This document shows positions 5,039 to 17,149 of a stretch of 64,000 nucleotides of DNA, piece after piece. Below the pieces are notes generated by a model. That model did not search any database. It had not been told where the DNA came from and was given only the letters and a program-made list of their open reading frames with translations. Both the position numbers and the translations under genes were made by a program. Every line of letters starts with the position of its first letter. Position 1 is the first letter of the stretch. The stretch comes from Polyangiaceae bacterium (GTDB taxonomy: Bacteria; Myxococcota_A; Polyangia; Polyangiales; Polyangiaceae), in assembly GCA_016933275.1 (NCBI GenBank), contig JAFGBI010000303.1, forward strand, positions 1 through 64,000. The letters run 5' to 3'.

Positions 5039-5178
5039 CTTCGCAGGTGCCCCGGTTGGGAGAAGACCGAAAACTCCACGGTACCCCGAATCGCTCCCGC
5101 GTGAACCATCCCTCGTGTCGCTCGGGTCTTGGTTCCCCAGCAGAAGGGTGCTACTCGACGGGCCGAATGGGAGCCCTG

Positions 5179-5500
5179 GAGCACCGATCAGGCTGCCAAC
5201 GGAAGCGGCGCCGCTCAAAATGCACCCCAATTCGACCCTGGATCTGCCCACTCGGCGCTGCCGAGCGGGCCCCGACACCCGGTGCCCTTGACGTGGGTCC
5301 TGTGCAGAGCAAGGGACCCGCGGCGTCCCGGCCCCACGCCGCTTCACCGCATGGGGTGCGTTTCCAGCGCCACCCTGGGCGAGGCTTGCTGCCCGTTCGG
5401 TGCCCGACGCCCTCACCCACCCCACGGATGCTGGGTGGGACCCGGAGGACGCGGGTCCCTAGGTTGTTGATTTTTCGCAGCAATCAACCCGATTGCTGCA
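5179..5500. repeat. Intergenic structured element, family 1 copy 1 (imperfect hairpin arms plus terminal GCAGCAATC/GATTGCTGC hairpin)
   Basis: GCACCGA (5181-5187)/TCGGTGC (5397-5403); AAATGCACCCC (5218-5228)/GGGGTGCGTTT (5353-5363); GCAGCAATC (5477-5485)/GATTGCTGC (5491-5499); shares segments in order with 16991-17149. Confidence 0.75.
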
Positions 5501-5522
5501 TTGGCCCCAAGAGGAACATGCC

Positions 5523-16708: not shown

Positions 16709-16844
16709 TGGCTAAAAACCGGCACCGTCGCCGGACTGCCCCGCCTCCGCAGAACCGGCGGCTGGCGACCGAATCCCCCCTGGCCCGCGGAGTAGCGGAG
16801 ACACCACCGTCCAAGGATTGGACACCAACTGCCACCAATATTCG

Positions 16845-16934
16845 GGAGAGCCCAGGATACTCCTGGAGAGCCCAGGATACTCCGGAGAGCCCAGTTCTCC
16901 GGAGGACCCAGGCGTCCGGAGCACCTAGTCTTCC
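16845..16934. repeat. Degenerate 17-20-nt tandem repeat, GGAGAGCCCAGnnnnCTCC-like, about 5 units
   Basis: ggagagcccaggatactcct / ggagagcccaggatactcc / ggagagcccagttctcc / ggaggacccaggcgtcc / ggagcacctagtcttcc. Confidence 0.8.
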
Positions 16935-16990
16935 GGGGAATGGAGCCTGCACCGAAGACACCCCGAGCTGAGACCCCCATCCGAACTGGC

Positions 16991-17149
16991 CTAGAGCACC
17001 GATCAGGTTGCCAACAGCAACGGCGGCGCTGGAAACGCGTCCGTGCGAGGCGAGGACGCGTTTCCAACGCTGCCTCTGGAGAGGTCTGCTGCCGGTTCGG
17101 TGCTCTAGGTCGTTGATTTGACGCAGCAATCACCTGATTGCTGCTCTAG
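16991..17149. repeat. Intergenic structured element, family 1 copy 2
   Basis: Perfect termini CTAGAGCACCGA (16991-17002)/TCGGTGCTCTAG (17097-17108); perfect inner stem GGAAACGCGTCC (17031-17042)/GGACGCGTTTCC (17054-17065); GCAGCAATCA (17123-17132)/TGATTGCTGC (17135-17144). Confidence 0.8.

Follow-up and report, generated by a model that had tools for sequence, protein, structure and literature searches.

A 160-bp palindromic repeat at CTAG sites in a Polyangiaceae genome is very probably a non-autonomous mobile element

What is the strongly palindromic stretch at positions 16991–17149 of the window, the 64-kb stretch of Polyangiaceae DNA analyzed here? A first-pass annotation had described a 118-nt hairpin with an extra hairpin adjacent to it, and had offered a structured ncRNA, a MITE or a REP-like element as explanations. 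Every stem that it named was found where it had been placed. Positions 16985–17155 fold with an energy of −100.8 kcal/mol, while shuffled versions average −62.1 (z = −9.6) and none of 200 is as low, so the suspicion of ordinary folding energy can be dropped. An Rfam covariance-model search of the 64-kb window gave zero matches at the gathering score, in agreement with the earlier statement that no known family explains the element. The second hairpin proved to be no adjacent extra: alignment of 78 copies shows a single unit that takes in both hairpins and in the window is 159 nt long, one base below the 160-nt consensus (Table 1).

Table 1. Parts of the element in the window, with a second, diverged copy.
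Feature	Position	Strand	Basis
Whole element, window copy 2 (very probable MITE)	16991..17149	+	boundaries common to 78 aligned copies
Left terminal inverted repeat CTAGAGCACCGATCAGGTTG	16991..17010	+	alignment; conserved in G009 and G027
Right terminal inverted repeat	17130..17149	-	reverse complement of TCACCTGATTGCTGCTCTAG; consensus CAACCTGATTGCTGCTCTAG; 17/20 matches to left end
Left CTAG, target-site copy	16991..16994	.	single CTAG at other copies' empty sites
Right CTAG, target-site copy	17146..17149	.	single CTAG at other copies' empty sites
Left arm, 118-nt hairpin	16991..17108	+	fold; closing stem CTAGAGCACCGA 16991-17002 / TCGGTGCTCTAG 17097-17108
Inner stem	17031..17065	+	GGAAACGCGTCC 17031-17042, 11-nt loop, GGACGCGTTTCC 17054-17065; sequence varies between subfamilies and genera, pairing kept
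Linker GTCGTTGATTTGAC, consensus GTTGTTGATTTGAC	17109..17122	+	part of the element most like alphaproteobacterial repeats
Right arm hairpin GCAGCAATCA-CC-TGATTGCTGC	17123..17144	+	an A-T pair replaced by G-C in 11 copies; TCTAG ends the element at 17149
Window copy 1, diverged long form	5176..5504	+	inserted sequence; decayed ends CTGG / TTGG; model matches 5177-5223, 5355-5405, 5453-5501

The related copy that the annotation had placed at 5179–5500 is real, although it is a diverged long form with insertions in both halves and decayed ends. Immediate surroundings of copy 2 include short imperfect direct repeats (GAGAGCCCAGGATACTCC...) upstream at 16840–16925, which have an ExbD/TolR-like gene on one side and an H+-pyrophosphatase-like gene on the other.

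Copies are dispersed through the host genome (G000; 8.25 Mb in 464 contigs). A first search yielded 647 candidates in total, the 40 that were scored having ~93–97% identity and the same ends. The left end, with up to three mismatches allowed, occurs at least 478 times, against a single occurrence of a reversed-pattern control, which disposes of the possibility that there are no further copies. A sample of 1.55 Mb of host sequence held 63 full copies, scaling to roughly 335 per genome, an approximate figure since the sampled contigs were partly picked for carrying copies. Approximately 478 copies of 160 bp would amount to ~0.9% of the genome. Full copies are 72–98% identical to the consensus from the 78-copy alignment, in which conservation falls to background right outside the CTAG on both sides and the flanks have no consensus. 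The terminal inverted repeats are 20 bp long (CTAGAGCACCGATCAGGTTG...CAACCTGATTGCTGCTCTAG, with 17 of 20 bp matching between the consensus ends) and follow the pattern GAGCA(C/G)C(G/A)ATCAGGTTG. A plasmid and phage search with the window element returned zero matches. Numerous host contigs end in or next to copies (C8, C9, C27, C35, C91, C94, C196–C198, C216, C217, C271, C272 and others), and the assembly was probably broken by the element family itself. One contig region (L054:1-90) consists of a 17-bp unit, AGCCTGATTGCTGCTCT, repeated five times in tandem, whose source is the right end of the element.

Some copies lie inside other repeat families, for which uninterrupted sister repeats serve as empty sites; these are paralogous repeats and not orthologous sites, and mobility is read from them on that footing. 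At the exact position where a filled site reads CTAG-element-CTAG, the empty site has just one CTAG. This was seen for L038 (filled) versus L140 (empty), L065 versus L070 and L039, L053 and L110 versus L104, L044 and L120 versus L150, and L141 versus L122; in other sister repeats the corresponding position reads CTGG, CCAG or the like. Insertion is thus precise at CTAG, duplicating either CTAG or its TA core: 4-bp and 2-bp duplications look alike in sequence, and the outer C and G may be mere target preference. IS630 elements prefer TA within CTAG, and the targets of IS5- and IS701-type elements are YTAR. Correlation between left and right end variants says nothing on duplication, as CTAG is present at nearly all element ends.

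The target tetranucleotide is rare. Base composition predicts 4565 CTAGs for the sample, and 778 were counted outside elements, a ~6-fold depletion (4.6-fold when the CTAGs of the elements themselves are included). By gene calls that are approximate, made with our own simple codon model, 60 of the 63 full copies lie between genes, and a terminal CTAG carries the TAG stop codon of a neighboring gene in 16 of the 63. At L069:9257-9416 the stop codons of both convergent genes lie in the terminal CTAGs of one element. The tetramer has decayed on one side in a few of the 16 stop-codon copies. The rate of stop-codon overlap is explained by CTAG targeting alone, as it does not differ from that of non-coding CTAG sites (25% versus 18%, p = 0.22). 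The neighboring genes that were tested are intact, with the domains of AccA (L153) and of a GH30 protein (L155) complete almost to the last residue.

Relatives of the element have a patchy distribution, occurring in four of 108 genomes of the family: the host, G009, G027 and, weakly, G028. G009 has about 147–168 candidate copies at first look. Identical copies tie G009 to Deltaproteobacteria bacterium SZUA-265, and others tie G027 to Polyangiaceae bacterium Zod_Metabat.23. The 20-bp ends are kept in both G009 and G027. Across genera the ends and the 3' module are alike, and the inner stems differ widely while still pairing. In a sample of 378 genomes of the phylum, only one other had a single-mismatch match to the core.

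Could the element instead be a structured RNA that the host keeps, such as a terminator, an mRNA stabilizer, an sRNA or another transcript-end element, repeated by chance? The strong fold (z = −9.6) would suit such a role, as would covariation across copies. Among 28 copies from three genera, nine predicted pairs, mostly in the inner stem, have two-sided changes that keep pairing; another such pair is in the right hairpin, where 16 copies have A-T and 11 have G-C. Within the host genome double changes are largely subfamily markers, and palindrome-templated correction is a possible alternative source of symmetric changes. Furthermore, young copies lose pairing: among the 50 copies with at least 93% identity to the consensus, the inner stem had 41 single breaks versus three compensated pairs. 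Pairing kept in spreading lineages and lost in residents fits a role in transposition. Placement gives host function its other argument, since copies lie between convergent genes more often than the CTAG background (23/56 copies versus 52/278 CTAG sites, p = 7e-4). Convergent sites are also where insertions harm least, and the excess is as expected if harmful insertions are lost; moreover, tandem neighbors show no orientation bias (11 copies in the same orientation, 12 opposite), and presence is patchy, in four of 108 family genomes. We consider a host-kept RNA highly improbable, and the decay of pairing in young copies turns us from the resident ncRNA of the first-pass annotation.

The search for a partner enzyme covered six Pfam families in the host and three relatives: DDE_Tnp_1 (PF01609), Y1_Tnp (PF01797), DDE_3 (PF13358), DUF4096 (PF13340), DUF772 (PF05598) and DDE_5 (PF13546). 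Inverted-repeat and end-pattern scans around the matches found no transposase bounded by the element ends. A partner could sit hidden, as many contigs end inside copies. A pair of ends 2.3 kb apart at L067 was rejected as an autonomous element, since ordinary genes lie between them. Decayed pieces of IS630-type transposases lie around or beside host copies (L162:1441-2460, L166:1396-1818, L183:1500-1850); as candidate partners they were rejected, being decayed and having no ends in common with the element.

A different enzyme class would offer another route, in which a Y1 (HUH) transposase moves the hairpin element as single-stranded DNA in the manner of REP/REPIN or IS200/IS605, inserting it 3' of a CTAG target, with the right CTAG belonging to the element. 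Identical empty and filled sites would result. Right ends of IS200/IS605 have a hairpin close to the terminus, much as the right hairpin here stands one base from the terminal TCTAG, and the host does have one Y1 transposase gene. Yet no element ends were found near that gene, no Y1 match was obtained in G009 with its ~150 candidate copies, and 20-bp inverted ends are unexpected for elements of this kind; we judge the Y1 route unlikely. REP/REPIN systems share with the Polyangiaceae element hundreds of extragenic palindromes, with a hairpin beside a tetranucleotide. They differ in that a 20–40 bp palindrome carries a GTAG-type tag at just one of its ends, compared with CTAG on both sides of 160 bp with long inverted ends, and in having the Y1 (RAYT) gene flanked by repeats, compared with a host Y1 gene that lacks the ends and none in G009. 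The REP-like option was set aside on these grounds.

We therefore strongly favor the MITE option, in line with the inverted repeats at the termini, the dispersal of hundreds of copies, the precision of insertion and the empty sites: 16991–17149 is very probably a copy of a dispersed, non-autonomous 160-bp MITE, for which a transposase supplied in trans would join the ends to a CTAG target. The product of insertion is seen in the empty and filled sites; the enzyme and its transposase class are inferred. The transposase would recognize the 20-bp ends and join the element to the target, leaving CTAG, or at least TA, on each side. Where the target CTAG holds a stop codon, the stop would be preserved, with CTAG at both sides after insertion. 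Surviving insertions would be mostly harmless, because CTAG is depleted and often intergenic or in a TAG stop codon. The two-hairpin fold would serve mobility, for example through hairpin recognition, and not a host function, because it is conserved between subfamilies and genera while decaying in individual copies.

Other small CTAG-bounded repeats were noted. Long forms have at their inner CTAG a second repeat of ~150 nt, TCCCTNAGCGGTGTGATCTTGACCGGATCTGG...GGCTCCGCCGGG, which is flanked by YTAG at either end and is found in tandem as well (L067:3900-4055, L048:16950-17110, L069:18485-18625, L166:1912-2181); it looks like another CTAG-inserting element. G009 has yet another small element with inverted repeats at L161:1280-1450, CTAGCAGGCTGTTGAAAAACTC...GAGTTTTTCAACAGCCTGCTAG, and it too is bounded by CTAG.

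Our literature search found no description of such elements in the Polyangiaceae lineage. Among known bacterial MITEs, RUP (of Streptococcus pneumoniae), ERIC and Correia/NEMIS are 100–160 bp, intergenic and without their own transposase, with inverted ends and TA in the target (PMC2229807). The Polyangiaceae element resembles them in all these respects, with unrelated end sequences and the whole of CTAG as target; RUP has IS630-Spn1, whereas no insertion sequence with matching ends was found here. CIR elements have two stem-loop arms, a linker and TA within the termini, are ~105–160 bp and intergenic, and had their target duplication listed as unknown in a 2007 review (PMC2229807). Two arms and a linker are common to the Polyangiaceae element, to CIR (Caulobacter and other alphaproteobacteria) and to the related Bru-RS1/2 of Brucella. 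The Polyangiaceae element differs from CIR/Bru-RS in its phylum, its several hundred copies, the long inner stem of its left arm, its 20-bp inverted ends and its demonstrated target duplication. The GANTC (CcrM) site in the terminal loop, a hallmark of CIR, is absent from the Polyangiaceae consensus, which has only GATCA, GATTT and GATTG.

A search with the core pattern matched one repeat in a Caulobacteraceae MAG (L191), CTAGAGCACCGATC...GATCGGTGCTCTAG, which lies at a contig start with its first bases missing. It comprises a CTAG-bounded hairpin, the linker GTTTTTGTTTTGACG, a second hairpin and GCTCTAA, and matching repeats occur on plasmids of Bartonella and Asticcacaulis. The plan of two arms and a linker with TA termini is seen in the folds of both the consensus and L191. 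The Polyangiaceae element is likely homologous to CIR, a comparison made with CIR as described in print and with sequences from alphaproteobacterial repeats only. A larger proposal is that it forms with the CIR/Bru-RS-type repeats of alphaproteobacteria one superfamily of two-armed, CTAG/TTAG-inserting elements, whose hairpins and ends would be read, in one phylum as in the other, by a single enzyme still to be recognized, the host genomes having no classical transposase partner; we regard this as rather doubtful.

In sum, what began as an unexplained palindrome is now a defined mobile element whose target site has been worked out. Its family is a new one among MITEs, high in copy number and clear in its choice of target, although of an already known kind. 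It offers a simple picture of near-harmless spread, in which the target is a tetranucleotide depleted in the genome and often forming a stop codon. Its plan, common with CIR-type repeats, predicts CTAG/TTAG duplication for those long-known repeats as well.
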